Source: Halorhabdus rudnickae
Lineage (GTDB): Archaea; Halobacteriota; Halobacteria; Halobacteriales; Haloarculaceae
Length of the DNA: 64,000 nucleotides
Assembly: GCF_900880625.1 (NCBI RefSeq)
Contig: NZ_CAAHFB010000001.1
Coordinates: 248,001 to 312,000 of the forward strand
Direction: 5' to 3'
Position 1 is the first letter of the stretch; each line of letters begins with the position of its first letter. This document shows, in pieces, positions 27,964 to 42,822 of the stretch. Both the position numbers and the translations under genes were made by a program. The notes below the pieces were generated by a model. It was given only the letters and a program-made list of their open reading frames with translations, was not told the DNA's origin and made no database searches.

Positions 27964-27985
27964 CGGGTACAATCCGTGCCAGGTG

Positions 27986-27997
27986 CGAATATATTCG
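27986..27997 (+). promoter_or_regulatory. NarO-type palindrome before the second DUF2249 gene
   Basis: CGAATATATTCG is a perfect palindrome 32 bases before ATG 28030. It is the CGAAYATRTTCG variant of the site at 39,182. Confidence 0.55.
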
Positions 27998-28029
27998 GGA
28001 GAATCTCTTCTCTGCCACAGTCCGGACCA

Positions 28030-28269
28030 ATGTGTATGCCAGCGACGACACTCGATCTCAGAGAAGTCCCGCCTCCGGAACGCCATCCGAAGATCCACGA
28101 CGCGTTCGAGAACTTGGAAAGCGGTGAAGTCCTGGAGATCATCAACGACCATGAACCGAAACCCCTGTTCTACGAGTTCCAGGCCGAAGTCGAGTCGTTC
28201 GACGCCGACAACTACGCCGTGACGTGCAAGGACGAGGGGACGTTCGTCGCGACGCTTCCAAAGAAGTGA
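28030..28269 (+). CDS. DUF2249 domain protein (second copy)
   Basis: The 79-residue protein reads LDLREVPPPERHPKIHDAFE, LEIINDHEPKPLFYEFQAEV and TFVATLPKK, a complete DUF2249 domain that differs in most positions from the first copy. It lies 66 bases after the MOSC gene and has its own palindrome upstream. ATG 28036 is an alternative start two codons in. Confidence 0.88.
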   Translation: MCMPATTLDLREVPPPERHPKIHDAFENLESGEVLEIINDHEPKPLFYEFQAEVESFDADNYAVTCKDEGTFVATLPKK

Positions 28270-30448: not shown

Positions 30449-31182
30449 CACCAGGTCACCTCGCGATGCCCGGCCGAACGATCGTCTTCGAGTCGGTCGG
30501 CCAGAGCCGCGTGATCCGCCGTGACTACTCGATCGAGGAGGATGGCCAGATCGGCGTAGACACCGGCGGCCTCGGTTTCCGCGAGTTCCTCGCGCAACGA
30601 AGCCGCGAAGACGGTCAGGTGTCGATCCAGAAAGTCTCGGCGGGCGGCCGCGGCGTCGTTCTCGCCGAGGGCCTCACGCCGGGCGAGATAGCCCGCAAAC
30701 TCCAGTTGTAACCCGAGGTTGTCGTGGTGATCGCGTTCGTCCTCGTCGACAGAGAGGCCGTAGTACTCGTAGGCTCTCGCCAGATCGACGTTGATCGTCT
30801 CCCAGGTCGCGTCCGCACGATGGCTGGATTCGTACAGTGATACCACCGGCCCGTCCTTCTCGACCGAGCCGTCCGTCCGGTCGGTGACGACAGCGTTTCC
30901 GAGGGCGAACAGTCGGTTGTACCGCGCGCTGAGTCCTTCATAGTCGTCCCCTGGATCGAGATCCGGGACGGACACATCCAGGGGGGTCTGTGCGATGGCG
31001 TCGCTGAGTCCGTTTCTCACACCGCCGTCGACGAGACTGGTGTGGAGGTCCTCGGTCGGATGCTCGAACGCTCGGGCCAGCGATTGATAGAGGACGCCTC
31101 GGGCGGCGGGATCGGCTCGCACTTCGTCGGGGTCGAGCCGATCATCCCCGTTTGGATCCACGCCGGTGTTCGTGTCGCTCAT
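30448..31182 (-). CDS. narJ: NarJ/TorD-type chaperone of the nitrate reductase
   Basis: The 244-residue protein has the TorD/DmsD helical fold: ARGVLYQSLARAFEHPTEDL, YEGLSARYNRLFALGNAVV, GPVVSLYESSHRADATWE and LEFAGYLARREALGENDAA. The E-S-S-H/Y-E-S-loop is the site that such chaperones use for the Tat signal or cofactor-free catalytic subunit. It lies in the operon between the gamma subunit (one-base overlap, TGATG) and the membrane protein. Confidence 0.85.
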   Translation of the reverse strand: MSDTNTGVDPNGDDRLDPDEVRADPAARGVLYQSLARAFEHPTEDLHTSLVDGGVRNGLSDAIAQTPLDVSVPDLDPGDDYEGLSARYNRLFALGNAVVTDRTDGSVEKDGPVVSLYESSHRADATWETINVDLARAYEYYGLSVDEDERDHHDNLGLQLEFAGYLARREALGENDAAAARRDFLDRHLTVFAASLREELAETEAAGVYADLAILLDRVVTADHAALADRLEDDRSAGHREVTW

Positions 31183-32030
31183 CACGATTCGCCCTCCTCT
31201 CGGGCCTGCCGGACGCTGAGGGCGGTGACGGCGATCACCAGCGCGATCGCCGCGCCGGCGACGGCCCAGAGAATCGCCTGGAACGGTGCGCCGCCGTCGT
31301 CGGGCCCGAACGGGAAGTAGTACCATTCGCTGACAGCCTTCTGGCCGGCGCGTTCGCTATTCTCCCCGTTCCAGATCCCGAGGGCGACGCTGAGGTCCGC
31401 GTCGGCGGTCAACATTGTCCGGTTATCGACCGACGCGTCCAGATCGCGCGCGAAGACGACGCTCCAGCCGTCTTCCTCGCCGACGGTGGCTCGGGTCGCT
31501 TCGGTGCTCACCGCGGGTTGCTGGAAGACTGTTGTCGTGCCAGGACCTCCAGCGAGCAGTTCCTGGGTGTTTTCGGTGGCCGACCACTGCCAGACATTGA
31601 CCATATTGCGCTCACTGCCCATCGCGATCGCCGGCTGAGTACTCGCGTTGACGGGGAACTGGAGAGCGGCCATGTCGGCGAACGCACGGGGTGAACTCTC
31701 CAATCGATCGCTGCTGGGATCGACCCAGCGCAGCCGGACGAACAGCTTTTCGTCTGTCTGTGCTGCTTCGACGTCGACCTCGCGGACGGTCGTGTCGTCG
31801 GCATTCGGAACGCCGCTGGGTGCACTCGCCAGCGGAACGGTGGCCGCCGGCACGTCGCTCCATCCGTCAGCTGTCGGATCGGCCAGCGAATCATCGACGT
31901 TCTCGACCGGGATCTCACGAGCCGGACGGGCGTCGGCGATCAGCGGCGCGAGCGCGGCGCTGGCGACCAGCAGGCCCGCGAGCAACCCGGCAACCAGCAG
32001 CGGTCGACCCCCCCGATCGATTTCAGTCAT
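31182..32030 (-). CDS. Haem-binding gamma-like subunit of the nitrate reductase (ethylbenzene-dehydrogenase gamma type)
   Basis: The 282-residue protein has a signal or anchor helix at the start (RPLLVAGLLAGLLVASAALA), then a beta domain related to EB_dh gamma subunits. That domain has EKLFVRLRWVDPSSDRLESS, AALQFPVNASTQPAIAMG and VNVWQWSATENTQELLA with its Met and Lys/Trp haem-site pattern. A C-terminal membrane helix (QAILWAVAGAAIALVIAVTA) follows. Such subunits carry b-type haem outside the membrane and pass electrons to the beta subunit. The start is ATG 32030; GTG 32033 is an alternative. Confidence 0.82.
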   Translation of the reverse strand: MTEIDRGGRPLLVAGLLAGLLVASAALAPLIADARPAREIPVENVDDSLADPTADGWSDVPAATVPLASAPSGVPNADDTTVREVDVEAAQTDEKLFVRLRWVDPSSDRLESSPRAFADMAALQFPVNASTQPAIAMGSERNMVNVWQWSATENTQELLAGGPGTTTVFQQPAVSTEATRATVGEEDGWSVVFARDLDASVDNRTMLTADADLSVALGIWNGENSERAGQKAVSEWYYFPFGPDDGGAPFQAILWAVAGAAIALVIAVTALSVRQAREEGES

Positions 32031-32035
32031 CACAG

Positions 32036-32279: not shown

Positions 32280-33320
32280 ATCGAACGCCTCCAAACGGTA
32301 CTGCTGGGCCGGGTTCTTGTCCTGGAGGATCTCCATGAGTTCGCTGTGGCCGCCGCGTTCGACTTTCGCGCGCTCGCGTTCGATCGTGTCCAAGGCGTCG
32401 TTTACCTGCTCGCCGAACAGTTCTTCGAGGTACGACCGCGGGATGCGCTCGACGTCGACGGTCTCGCCGTCCTCGGAGTGTTGGGGCGGCGCAGTCGGCG
32501 GGATGTAGTAGACGTTCGGCGTCGTCTGGTACTCCGGATGGAGGGGCAGGGCGACCTCGTACTGCTCGACGAGCTTGTAGATCGGGCCATCCTGATCGTC
32601 GAGATAGCCGACCATGCGGAGTTGCGTCGTACACTGATCGGCACAGGCTGGCGGGTGGACCTCGTCGTCGGGTCCTTCGCCCTCGATACGCGGGTAACAG
32701 AAGACGCACTTCTCGGAGCGCTTCGTGACGGCGTTGTAGTAGACTTTCTTGTAGGGACAGCCCTCGACGCAGTAGCGGTAGCCCCGGCAACGGTCCTGGT
32801 CGACCAGAACGACGCCGTCCTCCTCGCGCTTGTACAGCGCCTTCCGGGGGCAGGCCTCCACACAGGAGGGATGGGTGCAGTGGTTGCAGATCCGCGGGAA
32901 GTAGAAGTAGTAGTTGTTGGGATGCTCGCCGGCACCCTGGTCCTCGTCCCAGTTTGGCCCCCACTCGGGATCGCCGCCTTCCGGTTTGAGGGCCTTGTCT
33001 TCGCCCTCTTTGAGGATTCCCTCGTGGTCGAACTCCCAGGCCTCGCCGTAGTCCTCCTGGGATGGGATCTCGCCGACGGAGCGTTCGTTGTGCTCTTCGG
33101 ATTCCCAACCACCGCCCTTCGATTCCCAGTCGCGAGGGTAGCCTTGCCCGGGACGGGTCTCGACGTTGTTCCAGTACATGTACTCGGTGCCCTCCCGCTC
33201 GGTCCAGAGCGTCTTGCAAGCGACCGTGCAGGTCTGACACCCGATGCACTTGTTGAGGTCCATCACCATCGCGACCTGGTGGTCCACCCCGTCAGCGATT
33301 TCGACGTCGTCGTGAGCCAT
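32271..33320 (-). CDS. narH: Nitrate reductase beta subunit
   Basis: The 349-residue protein holds the four Fe-S cluster motifs: MDLNKCIGCQTCTVACKTLW, ICNHCTHPSCVEACPRKALY, DQDRCRGYRYCVEGCPYKKV and KCVFCYPRIEGEGPDDEVHP. It is the electron-transfer subunit between the haem gamma subunit and NarG. The third motif has Tyr in a position where Cys would complete a [4Fe-4S] cluster and where NarH usually has Trp, which marks the [3Fe-4S] site. ATG 33320 overlaps the narG stop by one base; GTG 33323 is an alternative. Confidence 0.96.
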   Translation of the reverse strand: MAHDDVEIADGVDHQVAMVMDLNKCIGCQTCTVACKTLWTEREGTEYMYWNNVETRPGQGYPRDWESKGGGWESEEHNERSVGEIPSQEDYGEAWEFDHEGILKEGEDKALKPEGGDPEWGPNWDEDQGAGEHPNNYYFYFPRICNHCTHPSCVEACPRKALYKREEDGVVLVDQDRCRGYRYCVEGCPYKKVYYNAVTKRSEKCVFCYPRIEGEGPDDEVHPPACADQCTTQLRMVGYLDDQDGPIYKLVEQYEVALPLHPEYQTTPNVYYIPPTAPPQHSEDGETVDVERIPRSYLEELFGEQVNDALDTIERERAKVERGGHSELMEILQDKNPAQQYRLEAFDDD

Positions 33321-36175
33321 CACTCGTCACCTCCTTCTTTCGGCCGAATGTCACAGCGCACGTCGCTGTTGACGCCAGTCGGTCCCCAGAAGTTCGGGAA
33401 GAAGTGCAGATGCTCGCCCGAATCCTCGGGGTACTGGACGAGCTGTGTGGGTTTCATGTACATCGGGATCAGCGAGTTGAAGTTGTTCCGGCTGGGGTAC
33501 TGGTAGCGCTCCCAGGCGAAGTAATGCCGGACGGTCCCGGGTTCGCTGCCGGGGTAGATCTTGGCGTTGGCCTCGATCGTCGCCAGGTCGTTGTAGATCT
33601 CGACCGTGTCGCCGTCCTCGATGCCGCGGTGCTGGGCGTCTTCGGGATTGATGAACACCACGGGCTCGCCCCGGTTGAGCTGGAGCATCTTCTCGCTGTC
33701 GCGCCACGTCGAGTGGATCGACCACCGGCCGTGGGGCGTGTTGTACCGCAGGGGATACTCGCTCTGGTCGTTGGTCTCGACCGGCCGCTTGTGAGTCGGC
33801 AGTTCCTCGCCGAGATCCAGGAACCAGTCGTGATCGATGTAGTACTGCTGGCGACCCGTGAAGGTGGGCCAGGGCTCTTTGTCCTGGACGAAGTCCTTCC
33901 AGGGGGCGTAGGCCGTCCCCTCTTCGAGATCAGACGTCCAGTGGTCGCCCGCCGCCTCGAATCGCTGGGGTTGCTCGACGGTGTCGGCGAAGGTGATCTG
34001 TCCACCGTCCTCGGGATTGCTCTCCGTCGAATGCTCGAGGACGGCCTCACAGGCCGCCCGGTCCTCCTCCAGGGCACCGTCTTCGCCGGTCTCCCAGTCG
34101 CGGACGTAATCGTCGTAGACTGACTGGAGGTCGATCTGGCGATCGAACTTGCGGTCGTCGATCGGATCGATGTCCCGCTCGCGGGCGATTGCCTGAATTT
34201 TCTGGGCGAGTTCTTTGAATATCTGCCAGTCGGACTTGGCCTCGCCGAGGGGTTCGACGGCGGGCGTGAACGGATGCACGTAGGTGTGCATGTCCGTCAT
34301 GTTGAGGTCGTGTTTCTCGTAGTGGCTGGCTGCCGGCAGGACGATGTCGGCGTACAGCGCCGTCGAGTCCAGCCGGAAGTTGATGTCCACGACCAGGTCG
34401 AGTTTATCCCAGAGGACTTCCTCGACGGCAACGTTGCCCTTCGCCTGGTTGAAGAAGTTGCCACGCCAGACGAACATCGTCGACGGATCAGGTCGAGTAC
34501 CGTTCTCGCGTTCCTCGGGATAGACGGGCATCCAGCCCTTCTCGACGGATTCTTCGATCTTCGCACGGGTGTCGGGATCGGTGTTCTCCAGGATACCGGC
34601 GTGGTAGTAGGTCCACAGCGTCGTCGGGACGCCACGGACCGAGCCAGTCGGGAACGAGAGGGACTTCCAGCCGTGGAAGGTCCAGATCTTCTCCTGGCCG
34701 ACGTAGTGATCGACGCCGGTGCCGTTCCGGCCGATGTGGCCCGTCAGCGTGACGAGTAGTTGAATGGCGCGGTTGCCCAGGTCGTTGTGATACCAGTCGT
34801 TGACGCCCTTTCCGTGGATAATCTTCGCGCGGTCGACTTCGGCAAACTCCCGGGCGATCTTCTGATGGGTTTCGGCCCCGACGCCGGTTTCCTCGTGGAC
34901 GTACTCGGGCGTGTAGTTCGCCAACTCTTCCCGGAGGTTGTTCCAGACCGAGGTGACCGAGATCTGCCCGTCGGTCGTCTGGACAGTGGCATCGACGGCG
35001 AGTTGCGGGTCGAAGTCGAGTTCAATCGACAGCGAGTCGTCGTACTTGGCCTCCCGCTCACCTAGCGATCCCGGTGCGGCCCGGAGGGTCCCCTCGCTGT
35101 CCTGCATGACCATGACTTTCTCGGGTTCCTCGGCGTCGACAGAGAGGCCGGGCACTTCGCTTGCCCGGAGGAACTTCCCTGTGTCATCCCGGACGAGCAG
35201 GGGCATGTCGGACTGTTCTTTCAGGTGGGCCTCGTCGTAGCGGTTTTCCTCGACGATAGTGCGAGCCATGCCCAGCGCCAGCGCAGTGTCCGTCCCCGAA
35301 TTCGGTGCGATCCACTCGTCGGTGTGGACGGCCGTCTGGGAGTAATCAGAGAAGATCCCGACGCGTTTGGCACCCTCGTAGCCGGCATCGAGGAAGTACT
35401 TCGCGTCGGGGATGCGCGTGACGTTGATGTTCGATCCCCACGCGATGATATACTCGGCGTTGTGCCAGTCGGCGCTCTCGGCGTTGTCGGTCTGGTGGCC
35501 CCAGGTGATGGGCTGGCCCGGCGGCAGGTCCGAGTACCAGTCATAGAAGGAGTGGGAGACCCCGCCGAGCAGGTTTATCAGCCGCGAGCCCGAGGCGAAG
35601 GAGACGGGACTCATCGCCGGGATCGGCGTGAACCCGGAGATAGCGTCGTATCGGCCGTCCTGGATCTCTTCGATGACGTGCTCGGCGATCTCCGTCAGGG
35701 CTTCGTCCCAGGAGATGCGCTCCCACTCGCCGGCGCCGCGCTCGCCGGTCCGGCGCATGGGATACTGGACACGCTGTTCGGCGTCGACGTAGTCGTTATA
35801 GCAGGCCCCTTTCTGGCAGCCTCGCGGATTGGGGTCGGGGAGGCTCTCGTCGAAGCGGGGGTAGTCGTTGGCCTGTTGTTCGCGCCAGACCTGGCCGTTC
35901 TTGACGTAGACGTCCCACGAACAGGAGCCGGTGCAGTTGACCGAATGGGTCGACCGGGCCACGGAGTCCCAGTCCCACTCCTCGCGATAGAAGTCCTCCC
36001 AGTCGCGGTAGGGGTAGTTACCGATGGGATCGTCGACGGCTTCCAGCCCGTCCAGGGCCCGATCGGCAACGGTCAGGCCGGTCGCGCCGACCACGCCGGC
36101 TGCCCCGGCACCCAGCAGGAAGTCACGGCGCGAGAGGCCGTCTGTACTGTCGTCGGATGGATTTGCGTCGCTCAT
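33320..36175 (-). CDS. narG: Respiratory nitrate reductase catalytic subunit, Tat-exported
   Basis: The 951-residue protein has a Tat signal (GLSRRDFLLGAGAAGVVGAT), so it works on the outer face of the membrane as in other haloarchaea. The Fe-S cluster motif has the His form HSVNCTGSCSWDVYVKNGQV, then NPRGCQKGACYNDYV. The molybdenum-ligand segment is SHSFYDWYSDLPPGQPITWG with the Asp in YSDLP, diagnostic of NarG over DMSO reductases, and HGWKSLSFPTGSVRGVPTT follows. It binds Mo-bisMGD and reduces nitrate to nitrite. It overlaps the small membrane gene by four bases (ATGA). Confidence 0.97.
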   Translation of the reverse strand: MSDANPSDDSTDGLSRRDFLLGAGAAGVVGATGLTVADRALDGLEAVDDPIGNYPYRDWEDFYREEWDWDSVARSTHSVNCTGSCSWDVYVKNGQVWREQQANDYPRFDESLPDPNPRGCQKGACYNDYVDAEQRVQYPMRRTGERGAGEWERISWDEALTEIAEHVIEEIQDGRYDAISGFTPIPAMSPVSFASGSRLINLLGGVSHSFYDWYSDLPPGQPITWGHQTDNAESADWHNAEYIIAWGSNINVTRIPDAKYFLDAGYEGAKRVGIFSDYSQTAVHTDEWIAPNSGTDTALALGMARTIVEENRYDEAHLKEQSDMPLLVRDDTGKFLRASEVPGLSVDAEEPEKVMVMQDSEGTLRAAPGSLGEREAKYDDSLSIELDFDPQLAVDATVQTTDGQISVTSVWNNLREELANYTPEYVHEETGVGAETHQKIAREFAEVDRAKIIHGKGVNDWYHNDLGNRAIQLLVTLTGHIGRNGTGVDHYVGQEKIWTFHGWKSLSFPTGSVRGVPTTLWTYYHAGILENTDPDTRAKIEESVEKGWMPVYPEERENGTRPDPSTMFVWRGNFFNQAKGNVAVEEVLWDKLDLVVDINFRLDSTALYADIVLPAASHYEKHDLNMTDMHTYVHPFTPAVEPLGEAKSDWQIFKELAQKIQAIARERDIDPIDDRKFDRQIDLQSVYDDYVRDWETGEDGALEEDRAACEAVLEHSTESNPEDGGQITFADTVEQPQRFEAAGDHWTSDLEEGTAYAPWKDFVQDKEPWPTFTGRQQYYIDHDWFLDLGEELPTHKRPVETNDQSEYPLRYNTPHGRWSIHSTWRDSEKMLQLNRGEPVVFINPEDAQHRGIEDGDTVEIYNDLATIEANAKIYPGSEPGTVRHYFAWERYQYPSRNNFNSLIPMYMKPTQLVQYPEDSGEHLHFFPNFWGPTGVNSDVRCDIRPKEGGDE

Positions 36176-38995: not shown

Positions 38996-39137
38996 GTTGA
39001 TCACTGTGTGCTGATGCGTCCCACCACCAGTGGTTGCGGAAACTGGTAGGGCGGAGACGTCGGTCCCTTAGACAAAGACGGTCTTCCTCCATAGAAAGAC
39101 AACCTCAGCGCTGAGGGCTTTTATGTTAGAAAATTGT

Positions 39138-39149
39138 GAAATATGTTCG
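39138..39149. promoter_or_regulatory. Second, imperfect NarO-type site
   Basis: GAAATATGTTCG matches the CGAAYATRTTCG pattern at 10 of 12 positions. It is on the narA side of a TATA-like TTTATAC at about 39,157-39,163. Confidence 0.4.
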
Positions 39150-39156
39150 GCCGACT

Positions 39157-39163
39157 GTTTATA
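39157..39163. promoter_or_regulatory. TATA-like element shared by the divergent nar and narO genes
   Basis: TTTATAC reads as GTATAAA on the minus strand. It is placed between the two palindromic sites, so it could drive the nar operon with the perfect palindrome just upstream, or narO with the imperfect site upstream. The transcription start is not visible from sequence alone. Confidence 0.4.
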
Positions 39164-39181
39164 CGTGATCCCAAGGTGGGG

Positions 39182-39193
39182 CGAACATGTTCG
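39182..39193. promoter_or_regulatory. Perfect NarO-type palindrome in the narA/narO intergenic region
   Basis: CGAACATGTTCG is fully self-complementary. It lies 19 bases from the TATA-like element on the narO side. NarO of Haloferax volcanii is known to activate nar and nirK promoters; assignment of this box to it is inferred from location and symmetry. Confidence 0.6.
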
Positions 39194-39233
39194 GGCCAAA
39201 CGAAATATGGCTCGTCCGGTTGTACGTAACACA

Positions 39234-39923
39234 ATGGAGGGGGTTCGGGCGGAACTCGTCGTCGAGGACCCACGTCGCTGTGACGTAGCCGCTGCCTCCC
39301 GCGATTGCGGGCCGGTCTCGTCGGTTTCCCGGAGTGTCGTCCCGGACGCCGAGGGGCGCGTCCACGACGAGTTCACGGTTCGGGAAGGCGACCGTCCGGA
39401 TACGCTCGGCGACGCGACGGCGATATTCCGGGACGACAAACGGACTATCTATCGACTCCCGCGAGCGCACGGCCAGGGATGTGTCTGTGAGTGTATCGAA
39501 CGCGAAGGCTGTACCGTCCGTAACGTACAGATCGTGGACGGAACGCTGTTCGTGACTGTGCTTGCCTGTGATCTCGACGGAATCAGAGCGATCGTTTCGA
39601 CGTTGCGGGAGACTCAGGACGGCGTCAAAGTGGGGAAACTCCTCCGGGCGCCGCCGGAGGACGACCCAGGACCGCTGTGGGTCACTGATCCCGACGACCT
39701 GACCGCCCGCCAGCGCGAGGTGCTGGAGACCGCCTACGAGATGGGCTACTTTGAGTATCCACGGAACGCCAGTGCCGCGGTCGTCGCGGACGAACTCGGG
39801 GTCGCCACGCCCACATTCACCGAGCACCTCGCGGCCGCCCAGCGCAAACTCCTCGAAGGATTACTGGAGAACTCTCGATCGGACACAACTGCAAGGCAGC
39901 GCTCTCCCAAAGAGCGACCGTGA
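39234..39923 (+). CDS. narO: NarO-like anaerobic/nitrate respiration activator
   Basis: The 229-residue protein has a Cys-rich N-terminal sensing part. Cys16 and Cys25 come first, then the cluster GCVCECIEREGC (Cys83, 85, 87 and 93), which fits an oxygen-sensitive metal or Fe-S site. It also has a C-terminal HTH_10 domain (TARQREVLETAYEMGYFEYP, then LGVATPTFTEHLAAAQRKLL). Gene order, divergence from the nar operon and the Cys cluster identify it as NarO or a close relative. ATG 39234 is used; ATG 39207 would add nine residues. Confidence 0.82.
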   Translation: MEGVRAELVVEDPRRCDVAAASRDCGPVSSVSRSVVPDAEGRVHDEFTVREGDRPDTLGDATAIFRDDKRTIYRLPRAHGQGCVCECIEREGCTVRNVQIVDGTLFVTVLACDLDGIRAIVSTLRETQDGVKVGKLLRAPPEDDPGPLWVTDPDDLTARQREVLETAYEMGYFEYPRNASAAVVADELGVATPTFTEHLAAAQRKLLEGLLENSRSDTTARQRSPKERP

Positions 39924-39933
39924 GGGGCGACGG

Positions 39934-40263
39934 TCACTGCTCGACTGAGACGGCCGCTTCTCGGGTTTCTTCCTCCGTCACGTCCCTGGGGTCTCCGTGG
40001 CTCTCGACGGCAAAAAGGGTCGCCACTGTGCGAGCGAGTGCCGGGTCGTCCCGCTGGGCGGCCAGGTCGAGAGCCACCATCGGTCCTGTGAGAATCTGGT
40101 CGGCCAGACGGTCACAGAGTCCTTCGAGTTCGCCCCGACAGTCCTCGTCTAGCTTCCGGGTCGCCACAGCGACGTGTCGCTGTTTCGTCCGTTCGGTACG
40201 CTCGCATAACCGGTGTTCGACCGCGTCCGGATCGACGTTTCTCTCCCCGTTCGCTCCCGACAT
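39934..40263 (-). CDS. Stand-alone domain resembling the C-terminal dimerisation region of glutamyl-tRNA reductase
   Basis: ATG 40263 gives 109 residues. They are helical, with VEHRLCERTERTKQRHVAVA, then LEGLCDRLADQILTGPMVAL and LARTVATLFAVE, a pattern close to the HemA dimerisation helices (a helix rich in Glu/Arg, then LA-x-R-hydrophobic-x-LLHPP-like). The catalytic and NADPH domains are missing, so it cannot be a reductase. A NarO-type palindrome lies 38 bases upstream. It is convergent with narO, 10 bases apart. The family match is by eye and needs a profile search. Confidence 0.55.
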   Translation of the reverse strand: MSGANGERNVDPDAVEHRLCERTERTKQRHVAVATRKLDEDCRGELEGLCDRLADQILTGPMVALDLAAQRDDPALARTVATLFAVESHGDPRDVTEEETREAAVSVEQ

Positions 40264-40301
40264 GGTCGGAGCGACGAACCCATCCACGAAAAGGCCTACA
40301 G

Positions 40302-40313
40302 CGAACATATTCG
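40302..40313 (-). promoter_or_regulatory. NarO-type palindrome before the HemA-like gene
   Basis: CGAACATATTCG differs by one base from the perfect site at 39,182. It ends 38 bases before the start codon at 40,263 on the minus strand. Confidence 0.55.
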
Positions 40314-40352: not shown

Positions 40353-40976
40353 TCAGTCCTCGAATAGCGTTCGCGCCACTTTCAGGTCCGCTCGCGTGTT
40401 GACGTTTTTCACCGAGCGATCGAGATCGACGCATGCCGGTGATTCCTCGGCCGATACGACCACGGCGGAGAGTCGCTCGACCAGCGCGTGCAGGCTCCGG
40501 CCAGACCGGTCGGTTTCGAGCGCCTCGGCGAGCGCGCCCCGGCGGTACCAGGCATGGAGTGGGTGGAGTCCGTTCGCCGTCCGTGGAACGACTGCGTCGG
40601 CTTCCCCGGCCCGTTTCCCGGCGAGCCACTCGACCGACGCTTCCTCGACCAGCGGCATGTCACAACCGAGGACCAGCGACCATCGGGCATCGGACGCCTC
40701 CACAGCGCCCGACAACCCGGCGAGAGGTCCCTCCCGGTCGGGCACGTCGATCACGAACCGGACTAGCGCGTCCAGTACGTCGGCGTAAGCCTCCCGTTGT
40801 TCGGCCGTCGCGACGGCGACGATCGGCGTCCTGTCGGTGGCTCTTCCGGCGATGTCCACGACGCGCCCGATCAGGGACATCCCGCCGACCGTTGCCAGCG
40901 CCTTCTCACCGCCCTCGAAGCGACGACTCCGCCCACCGGCCAGGACGATCGCCGCCGCGTTCTCAATCGACGGCAT
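40353..40976 (-). CDS. mobA: Molybdenum cofactor guanylyltransferase
   Basis: The 207-residue protein starts AAAIVLAGGRSRRFEGGEKA, the GTP-binding loop of MobA, and has DVPDREGPLAGLSGAVEA, WSLVLGCDMPLVEE (metal-binding Asp) and VKNVNTRADL. It turns Mo-molybdopterin into the bis-MGD form that NarG needs. Its first 14 bases overlap the end of the MoeA fusion gene, so the two are coupled. Confidence 0.93.
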   Translation of the reverse strand: MPSIENAAAIVLAGGRSRRFEGGEKALATVGGMSLIGRVVDIAGRATDRTPIVAVATAEQREAYADVLDALVRFVIDVPDREGPLAGLSGAVEASDARWSLVLGCDMPLVEEASVEWLAGKRAGEADAVVPRTANGLHPLHAWYRRGALAEALETDRSGRSLHALVERLSAVVVSAEESPACVDLDRSVKNVNTRADLKVARTLFED

Positions 40977-42822
40977 ACCCAGTCAGTCCCTCGAATAGCC
41001 TCTCATCGTCGAGCCGGTCGGCGAGACGCCCGACGGCTGGTTTCTCGACGCGATCGGCCGCGGCGAAGACGCTCACCGGCTGGACGCCGAGTCCCTGGAA
41101 GCCGAGGCCGAGGCGGTCGGCGGTCGTCGCAAGCCCGAGCCCTACGTCGGCGCTGCCCCGTTCGATCCGTCTGGCGGCGCTCTCGATGCCGTGAGTCCCG
41201 ATCCCGTACCCGTCGATCTTCTCCCGGATGCCCTCGGGATCGTCCGACCCGTCGATGACGGCCTCGAAGGCCTCTTGCAAGCCCGAGCCGCGACTGCGAT
41301 TGACGAACCGATAGTCTCCGTCTGCGAGGGCAGCGACGCCGTCGACGTCGATCCCGTCGGCAAGCAACAGCCCCCATTCGCGGGTCCAACAGCCGAGCGT
41401 CTCGGCTGTGGATTCGAAGGAATTCTCGCCGGTGACGACGGCCACGTCGGCGATCCCATCAGCCAGCCAGCGCTGGCCACCAGTCGAACCGAGCGTCCGG
41501 TAACGCGTTCGATCGATCCCGTCGATGGCGGCCAGAAAGCCGGGATCGCGCTCGCCGACAGCGAGCAGTTCGGGCGGCCGATCAGATGTCGAAAACAACT
41601 CGACGGTGACCGTCTCGCCAGCGTCGAGCCGTCGCGTGTCGGCGGCCATCTCGACGACGCCGTCCGCGTAGGCCAGGCTCGTCGTCGCACCGCTGCCGCG
41701 ATCGACCGGGTAGACGAGCAGGTCGTCACTCCCGTCCCGGACCAGGCCGACCGGCACGGCGCGATGGCGGCCCTCGTCGTAGCGCTCTGTGCGAGCCAAC
41801 CGGCCGGTCACAGTCGCGGCGTCGCGGTCGGTTCCCGCCCACTCGCGTAGCGTCGGCCCAACCAACAATCGGAAGATCGACAACGCCGAGACTGGATAGC
41901 CGGGCAGTCCCACGAGCGGCGTCCCGTCGTAGCGGCCGACGATCGTCGGTTTTCCCGGTTTGATGCTGACCCCGTGGATCGTCAACTCGCCGTTGGCCTC
42001 GACGAGGCGATAGAGCACGTCGCCGCTGCCCGCGCTGGTCGAGCCGGCCGTCAACAGCAGGTCACATTCGGCGGCCGCCCGGGATAGCGTTTCTCGCATC
42101 TCGCTCTCGTCGTCCGGCAAGATACCGTACCGGAGAGGTTCGCCGCCGGTTTCTCGGACCGCGTTCGCGAGCGTCGTCCCGTTGACGTCGTAGATCTCTC
42201 CTTCCGCTGGGGAAAGTTCGCTACCGGGTGCGACGAGTTCGTCACCTGTCGGAAGGATCCCAACCGTCGGTGCTGTTCTGACAGGAACCGTCTCGCGGCC
42301 GATGGCCGCAAGCAGGCCGATCGTCCGCGGGGCGAGGCGCGTCCCCGCGCTCAGCGCTCGATCGCCGGCCGCCACGTCGCTGCCTGCCGACATCACGTTC
42401 GCGCCAGGCGCGACCGCCCGCTCGACAGCGACGGTCTCACCGCGGGCCTCGCATCGTTCGATCATCACGACGGCATCGGCACCCTCAGGGAGGACAGCAC
42501 CGGTTGCGATCTCGACCGCCGTGCCAGCCTCGACAGCCGTCTCCGGACGTTCCCCCGCCGCGAGGCGATCCACGACCCGGAGTTCGATCGGATCCATCTC
42601 GCCCGCACCAGCCGTCTCTCTCGCACGGACCGCGTACCCGTCCATGCTCGCGCGATCGAACCCGGGGACGTCGATTCCTGCATCGATCGGCTCGGCGAGT
42701 ACGCGTCCGCTCGCGCGTTCGACTCGGACGGTCTCGGTTCCGGCCGGGGCCTCGAAGTTCCCGATCGCTTCGCGGGCGCGGGCGGGTGTCACCAGCTCCC
42801 GCATTTCACGTCGGTCGGTCAT
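40963..42822 (-). CDS. MoeA fused to a periplasmic-binding-like domain
   Basis: Residues about 1-400 form MoeA: PGFDRASMDGYAVRARETAG, VVMIERCEARGETV, GILPTGDELVAPGSELSPAE, TAGSTSAGSGDVLYRLVEAN and LVGLPGYPVSALSIFRL. The last 200 residues are a solute-binding-like domain (LLAVGERDPGFLAAIDGIDR, IADVAVVTGENSFESTAE, VNRSRGSGLQEAFEAV) of the COG1910 type, without a signal peptide. MoeA inserts molybdenum into molybdopterin; the second domain may bind molybdate or tungstate and feed it. A second MoeA follows upstream. Confidence 0.92.
   Translation of the reverse strand: MTDRREMRELVTPARAREAIGNFEAPAGTETVRVERASGRVLAEPIDAGIDVPGFDRASMDGYAVRARETAGAGEMDPIELRVVDRLAAGERPETAVEAGTAVEIATGAVLPEGADAVVMIERCEARGETVAVERAVAPGANVMSAGSDVAAGDRALSAGTRLAPRTIGLLAAIGRETVPVRTAPTVGILPTGDELVAPGSELSPAEGEIYDVNGTTLANAVRETGGEPLRYGILPDDESEMRETLSRAAAECDLLLTAGSTSAGSGDVLYRLVEANGELTIHGVSIKPGKPTIVGRYDGTPLVGLPGYPVSALSIFRLLVGPTLREWAGTDRDAATVTGRLARTERYDEGRHRAVPVGLVRDGSDDLLVYPVDRGSGATTSLAYADGVVEMAADTRRLDAGETVTVELFSTSDRPPELLAVGERDPGFLAAIDGIDRTRYRTLGSTGGQRWLADGIADVAVVTGENSFESTAETLGCWTREWGLLLADGIDVDGVAALADGDYRFVNRSRGSGLQEAFEAVIDGSDDPEGIREKIDGYGIGTHGIESAARRIERGSADVGLGLATTADRLGLGFQGLGVQPVSVFAAADRVEKPAVGRLADRLDDERLFEGLTGYAVD

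Follow-up and report, generated by a model that had tools for sequence, protein, structure and literature searches.

A stand-alone glutamyl-tRNA reductase dimerisation domain under a NarO-type box: a candidate HemA microprotein in haloarchaea

The window analyzed here is a stretch of 64,000 nucleotides from Halorhabdus rudnickae. It contains an open reading frame (ORF) for a small protein that carries a GlutR_dimer domain, the C-terminal dimerisation domain of glutamyl-tRNA reductase (GluTR, HemA), as well as genes for nitrate respiration and molybdenum cofactor synthesis (Table 1). The stand-alone ORF is convergent with the gene for a NarO/DmsR-type regulator, and the 3′ ends of the two genes almost meet. 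On the minus strand, the ORF is preceded by a run of molybdenum-cofactor genes that ends with a mobA-type gene, and a NarO-type palindrome sits between this gene and the ORF. The immediate context of the ORF in the window is formed by molybdenum-cofactor genes, not by haem genes. The nar genes, including narG and the gene for the EB_dh-domain protein, are located on the far side of the regulator. Orthologues of narG in genomes of the same genus have about 93% identity, are found in the same order, and adjoin the same gene. For the DUF2249 gene of the nar region, the true start is probably a downstream ATG (MCMPATTL...), because its NarO-type box lies inside the listed frame. Additionally, the molybdenum-cofactor run includes a MoeA that has a PBP_like (substrate-binding-like) domain fused at its C-terminus (40963-42822).

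Table 1. Features in the window around the stand-alone GlutR_dimer ORF.
Feature	Position	Strand	Details
DUF2249 gene of the nar region	27976..28269	plus	Pfam PF10006, 9.6e-24; has a separate NarO-type box (27986-27997)
EB_dh-domain protein, likely haem b-binding gamma subunit	31182..32033	minus	Pfam PF09459, 1.9e-27
narG, nitrate reductase catalytic subunit	33320..36175	minus	Identified from sequence
NarO/DmsR-type regulator	39123..39923	plus	Pfam DmsR_N 4.4e-41, HTH_10 2.1e-21
Second NarO-type box, CGAACATGTTCG	39182..39193		Between the nar genes and the regulator; motif search
Stand-alone GlutR_dimer protein, 109 aa	39934..40263	minus	Start ATG at 40263, stop at 39934-39936
Possible TATA-like stretch, CCTTTTCG	40287..40294	minus	About 27 bp upstream of the ATG; by eye
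NarO-type palindrome, CGAACATATTCG (minus strand CGAATATGTTCG)	40302..40313		39-50 bp upstream of the ATG; motif search
mobA-type gene	40353..40976	minus	Directly upstream of the ORF, same strand; ORF list

The product of the stand-alone ORF has predicted helices at residues 12-35, 40-70, and 74-83. An earlier note on this DNA had matched it by eye to the dimerisation tail of HemA and had claimed that the catalytic and NADPH domains are lacking; both statements were borne out by the profile searches and the fold comparison. The protein matches the Pfam family GlutR_dimer (PF00745) with an E-value of 1.2e-6 and 29.2 bits, over the gathering cut-off of 22.9, and its residues 18-85 are aligned with positions 28-98 of the 99 positions of the profile. 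Neither the catalytic nor the NADPH domain was found in the product by profile search, so that the C-terminal domain stands alone. As expected from the absence of these domains, the NCBIfam hemA models gave only 12.5-14.8 bits, far under their cut-offs of 209.55 and 429, and the ORF does not fall under the definition of the enzyme glutamyl-tRNA reductase. The ordinary full-length HemA of the same genome is encoded by a separate gene (C1:234526-234816; GlutR_dimer domain, 85.1 bits) at a distance of 53 kb. The window protein and the GlutR_dimer domain of this HemA share 31% identity, and with a sequence so far from the HemA tail the partner of the small protein could have changed.

Searched against PDB with phmmer as a single query, the window protein had no match. 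The profile built from 44 stand-alone relatives gave significant scores for GluTR chains only (4yvq, 1.1e-7; 4n7r, 7.7e-7), the first of them being 4yvq_A, in which the C-terminal region of plant GluTR, separated from the rest of the enzyme, was crystallised together with FLU. The AlphaFold model of the window protein alone has a mean pLDDT of 83.4, with pLDDT of at least 90 at 76 of the 109 residues. Its best structural match by VIA-align was again 4yvq_A (Z 9.0, rmsd 2.0 Å over 76 residues). The top three matches (4yvq_A, 5che, and 5yjl) are all GluTR, with Z of 8.8-9.0, whereas the best unrelated chain in the ranking reached Z 6.4. The top two Foldseek matches are also GluTR, with weak E-values (1.5 and 2.2) that are non-significant alone; therefore, the claim about the fold rests on the agreement of the profile with the structural ranking. 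Since three methods agree, the assignment to GlutR_dimer is secure. A member of the family from Halorussus, folded without an alignment, gave a model of low confidence (mean pLDDT 70.7) and was left out of the evidence.

The palindrome upstream of the ORF fits the pattern CGAA-X4-TTCG, and its minus-strand reading is an exact fit to CGAAYATDKTYG. The former is the palindrome described for Haloferax volcanii in the promoters of ahbD and of denitrification genes, and described there as essential for nirK transcription (PMC5746218), and the latter is the motif of the denitrification promoters of H. mediterranei (PMC11218638). In the window, CGAAYATDKTYG occurs at three places, corresponding to 6 matches over both strands, as compared with 0.18 expected. 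A stricter pattern, CGAAYATRTTCG, has seven sites in the 3.36 Mb genome, including the box of the ORF, and three of the seven fall in the nar region of the window; no match to this pattern was found in the reversed control of the genome. The position of the TATA-like stretch, judged by eye, is consistent with a leaderless transcript. The window genome also has a TIGR04053 (AhbD-type) gene, and a further box, CGAATACGTTCG (G000:C1:1276111-1276122), precedes it at a distance of about 130 bp; therefore, this gene and the stand-alone gene may share a regulator.

Relatives of the ORF were searched in 391 haloarchaeal genomes with a profile built from nine stand-alone copies. At least two profile matches were found in about 132 of these genomes; this number is an upper bound, because some of the second matches are weak or belong to full-length HemA-like paralogues. 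The collected set included 45 stand-alone loci across haloarchaea. L112 and L133, which come from two collections, are one and the same Halorussus place and count once. The second matches at L084, L092, L108, and L113, and likewise those at L134, L135, L138-L141, L144, and L145, proved to be full-length HemA-like paralogues and were left out of the set. Several haloarchaea thus have a second, divergent full-length HemA-like protein beside the ordinary HemA. The matches at L042 and L044, antisense to NUDIX-like genes, were dropped, and the fusions suggested by long open frames around some matches were really HemA paralogues or overlapping frames. All ten relatives tested against PF00745 exceeded the cut-off, with 26.0-59.7 bits. 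In the window ORF and these ten relatives, the match starts at position 14-28 and extends approximately to the profile end, and this agreement of boundaries indicates the same kind of truncation throughout the family. The dN/dS values in 13 pairs were 0.12-0.63, and the stand-alone gene is under purifying selection.

Within the genus of the window, the location of the gene next to the NarO-type regulator is preserved in five genomes. Another genome of this genus (G269, L039:6960-7330) has an internal deletion removing most of the domain, and no CGAA-N4-TTCG was found in the upstream stretch examined at this locus; judged from its sequence, this copy is decaying. No second profile match was found in one more genome of the genus (G079). 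The tree of the domain, which is short, has four label changes and is compatible with one origin or several. A search of genome contigs with a single protein as the query matched three Haloarcula records, and a tblastn search of plasmids with a Haloarcula member and a member from the genus g20 gave no match. More than one stand-alone copy per genome was observed in G198 (L100 and L093) and in G343, with two or three nirK genes alongside; at L100, a nirK gene is located 240 bp downstream.

The NarO-type box claimed in the earlier note is real, and it is also conserved upstream of relatives. At 29 of the 45 loci, CGAA-N4-TTCG was found in the 500 bp that precede the domain. In total, 31 boxes are present in 22.5 kb of upstream sequence against about 5 expected, the rest of the same loci having 119 in about 508 kb. 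The boxes fall into two groups, one close to the gene and the other about 320-490 bp upstream, and most of the distant group are upstream of a DUF2249 gene that is itself followed by the stand-alone gene. A DUF2249 gene is present within 2.5 kb at 31 of the 45 loci, and DUF2249 is the commonest family among the neighbour proteins (31 of 146). In H. mediterranei, genes of this family show strong induction during denitrification (PMC11218638). Membership of the stand-alone gene in the anaerobic (NarO) haem and denitrification regulon is well supported.

At ten loci, the stand-alone gene comes after an AhbD-type radical SAM gene (TIGR04053) on the same strand, at a distance of 60-131 bp. In annotated records of Halarchaeum and Halorussus, it overlaps the radical SAM gene by 4 bp; both copies are annotated as "hypothetical protein". 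The next gene in Halorussus encodes a protoporphyrinogen oxidase (TIGR00562, 158.6 against a cut-off of 97.85), and the genes just upstream include nirK and a norB-like gene of the cbb3 type; a hemG-like gene is also present at L109. Other neighbours among the relatives are nirK, norB-like, halocyanin, cupin, and NarO-like genes, and at L037 and L038 MobA is encoded 113-116 bp upstream of the domain. The Haloferax larsenii gene that adjoins a halocyanin and a norB-like gene belongs to TIGR04053. Under the assumption of synteny with this gene, the ahbD gene of H. volcanii (HVO_2144) would belong to TIGR04053 too. An H. volcanii ahbD mutant is defective in anaerobic growth only and is rescued by protohaem (PMC5746218). 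The link to haem synthesis proposed in the earlier note is thus stronger than had been claimed, with the gene directly following an AhbD-type gene in other genera and preceding, in Halorussus, a protoporphyrinogen oxidase gene; the need for haem in NarC and the gamma subunit, named there as the reason, covers only part of the link, as relatives adjoin nirK, norB-like, and DUF2249 genes. Genes for rSAM-modified RiPPs of the CGCGG family were observed near DUF2249 or norB-like genes on plasmids of Haloprofundus and Halarchaeum (L118:4510-4830 and L132:1814-2113) and may also belong to this anaerobic neighbourhood.

HemA catalyzes the first committed step of tetrapyrrole synthesis and forms a dimer through this same C-terminal domain. 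We propose that the window ORF is a microprotein-like paralogue of GluTR, reduced to the dimerisation domain and induced by a NarO-type regulator, that would adjust the supply of 5-aminolevulinic acid (ALA) by pairing with or docking on HemA; the chance of this being right falls just short of even. The extension of this proposal to a widespread haloarchaeal HemA microprotein, which would be induced anaerobically, pair with HemA, and match the first haem step to AhbD and denitrification, is tentative, and we lean slightly towards doubting it. The NarO-type regulator would switch the stand-alone gene on as cells turn to anaerobic respiration. The small protein may then pair with the corresponding domain of HemA or mask the docking site on it, and this contact would adjust the ALA supply at the first step, acting either as a brake or as protection. 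AhbD, the last anaerobic step, would be induced from the same regulon or even from the same operon, and such co-induction would adapt the supply at the start of the pathway to its last step under anaerobic conditions. Since the working form of HemA is a dimer built through this domain, an inhibitory heterodimer would be the simplest mechanism. Binding of the stand-alone protein to HemA is plausible, and there is a precedent in plants, where FLU represses GluTR by binding exactly the dimerisation domain (PMC4726326). Counting against the proposal are the distance of the sequences from the HemA tail, the distribution in g20 described below, and the position of the window gene among molybdenum-cofactor genes.

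Alternatively, the domain may have changed its partner and now be a small subunit or adaptor of the AhbD-type haem synthase and/or of DUF2249 proteins, without contact with HemA; examples of such a role would be handling of siroheme-derived intermediates or delivery of haem to NorB, NarC, and the gamma subunit. This explanation, the main rival to the HemA proposal, is possible but rather doubtful. The strong divergence of the stand-alone sequences from HemA tails agrees with it, and so do the frequent DUF2249 neighbours, the ten loci close behind an AhbD-type gene, and the position directly 3′ of that gene with a 4-bp overlap; however, many loci, including those of the window and of g20, have no adjoining ahbD. 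Retention of the whole GlutR_dimer fold suggests, moreover, that the dimer surface still matters.

The distribution of the gene in g20 bears on this alternative. Among the 46 genomes of this genus, 19 have the stand-alone gene and 27 do not. TIGR04053 was found, at the threshold used, in none of the 19 carriers and in 2 of the 27 non-carriers, and no dependence of the stand-alone gene on ahbD was found in g20. In contrast, 13 of the 19 carriers have a nirK-type match, as compared with 1 of the 27 non-carriers, where it is partial (Fisher p about 3e-6, with relatedness ignored); at the family cut-off, the numbers are 12 of 19 and 0 of 27 (Fisher p about 1e-6, again with relatedness ignored). 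Thus, in g20 the stand-alone gene follows denitrification, not ahbD of the TIGR04053 type. Because its presence there tracks nirK and not ahbD, the gene cannot depend on this type of ahbD everywhere.

The same association with nirK is what would be expected if the protein served the maturation of denitrification enzymes or the response to nitrite or NO directly, with no role in haem synthesis, and if the haem-gene neighbours were present only because all of these are anaerobic genes. Such a function, to which the nirK, norB-like, halocyanin, cupin, and NarO-like neighbours also point, is nevertheless unlikely: the domain originates from a haem enzyme, and its operon-like coupling is closer to ahbD and hemG than to any denitrification enzyme. 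That the gene is a functionless, decaying remnant of a hemA duplication, as the L039 deletion and the missing second match in G079 could suggest, is very improbable and already largely refuted by conservation, the gene being kept in many genera with the same boundaries, often with a promoter box, and with dN/dS below 1.

The HemA-microprotein proposal would provide a name and a hypothesis for a family labelled "hypothetical protein", and would add a conserved member to the denitrification regulon. Little is known about control of the first step of haem synthesis in archaea, and the protein may have a so far overlooked role in controlling the haem supply of many haloarchaea during nitrate respiration. 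If true, the proposal describes a simple circuit that links the mode of respiration to haem supply through the enzyme's own pairing domain, and tractable haloarchaea, Haloarcula species among them, allow it to be tested. No description of a stand-alone GluTR dimerisation-domain family was found in the mostly open-access literature searched. For HemA, a survey of archaeal gene fusion and fission mentions only the HemA-HemB fusion, and passages of an archaeal haem survey mention ordinary hemA alone.

Plant and animal microProteins are paralogues reduced to a single domain, and they pair with the multi-domain proteins to which they are related, in most known cases transcription factors. Like them, the window protein consists of a dimerisation domain alone and has a full-length relative elsewhere in the genome; unlike most of them, it has an archaeal metabolic enzyme as this relative, and the pairing is here only proposed. 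Stand-alone dimerisation-domain regulators are therefore already a known kind, and the GluTR version would be new in the literature searched. With the dimerisation domain of GluTR itself (PF00745; 4yvq, 5che, and 5yjl), the family shares the profile and the predicted helical fold, but it differs in being a stand-alone protein without the first 13-27 or so profile positions, encoded by its own gene under a NarO-type box. FLU and the GluTR-binding protein of plants are likewise small proteins that control GluTR, FLU acting via the dimerisation domain (PMC4726326). However, FLU is a membrane TPR protein and unrelated in kind, whereas the candidate regulator described here is a copy of the target's own domain. 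With the haloarchaeal NarO regulon, which includes nirK, norB, ahbD, and DUF2249 genes (PMC5746218; PMC11218638), the stand-alone gene shares both the palindrome and the neighbourhood.
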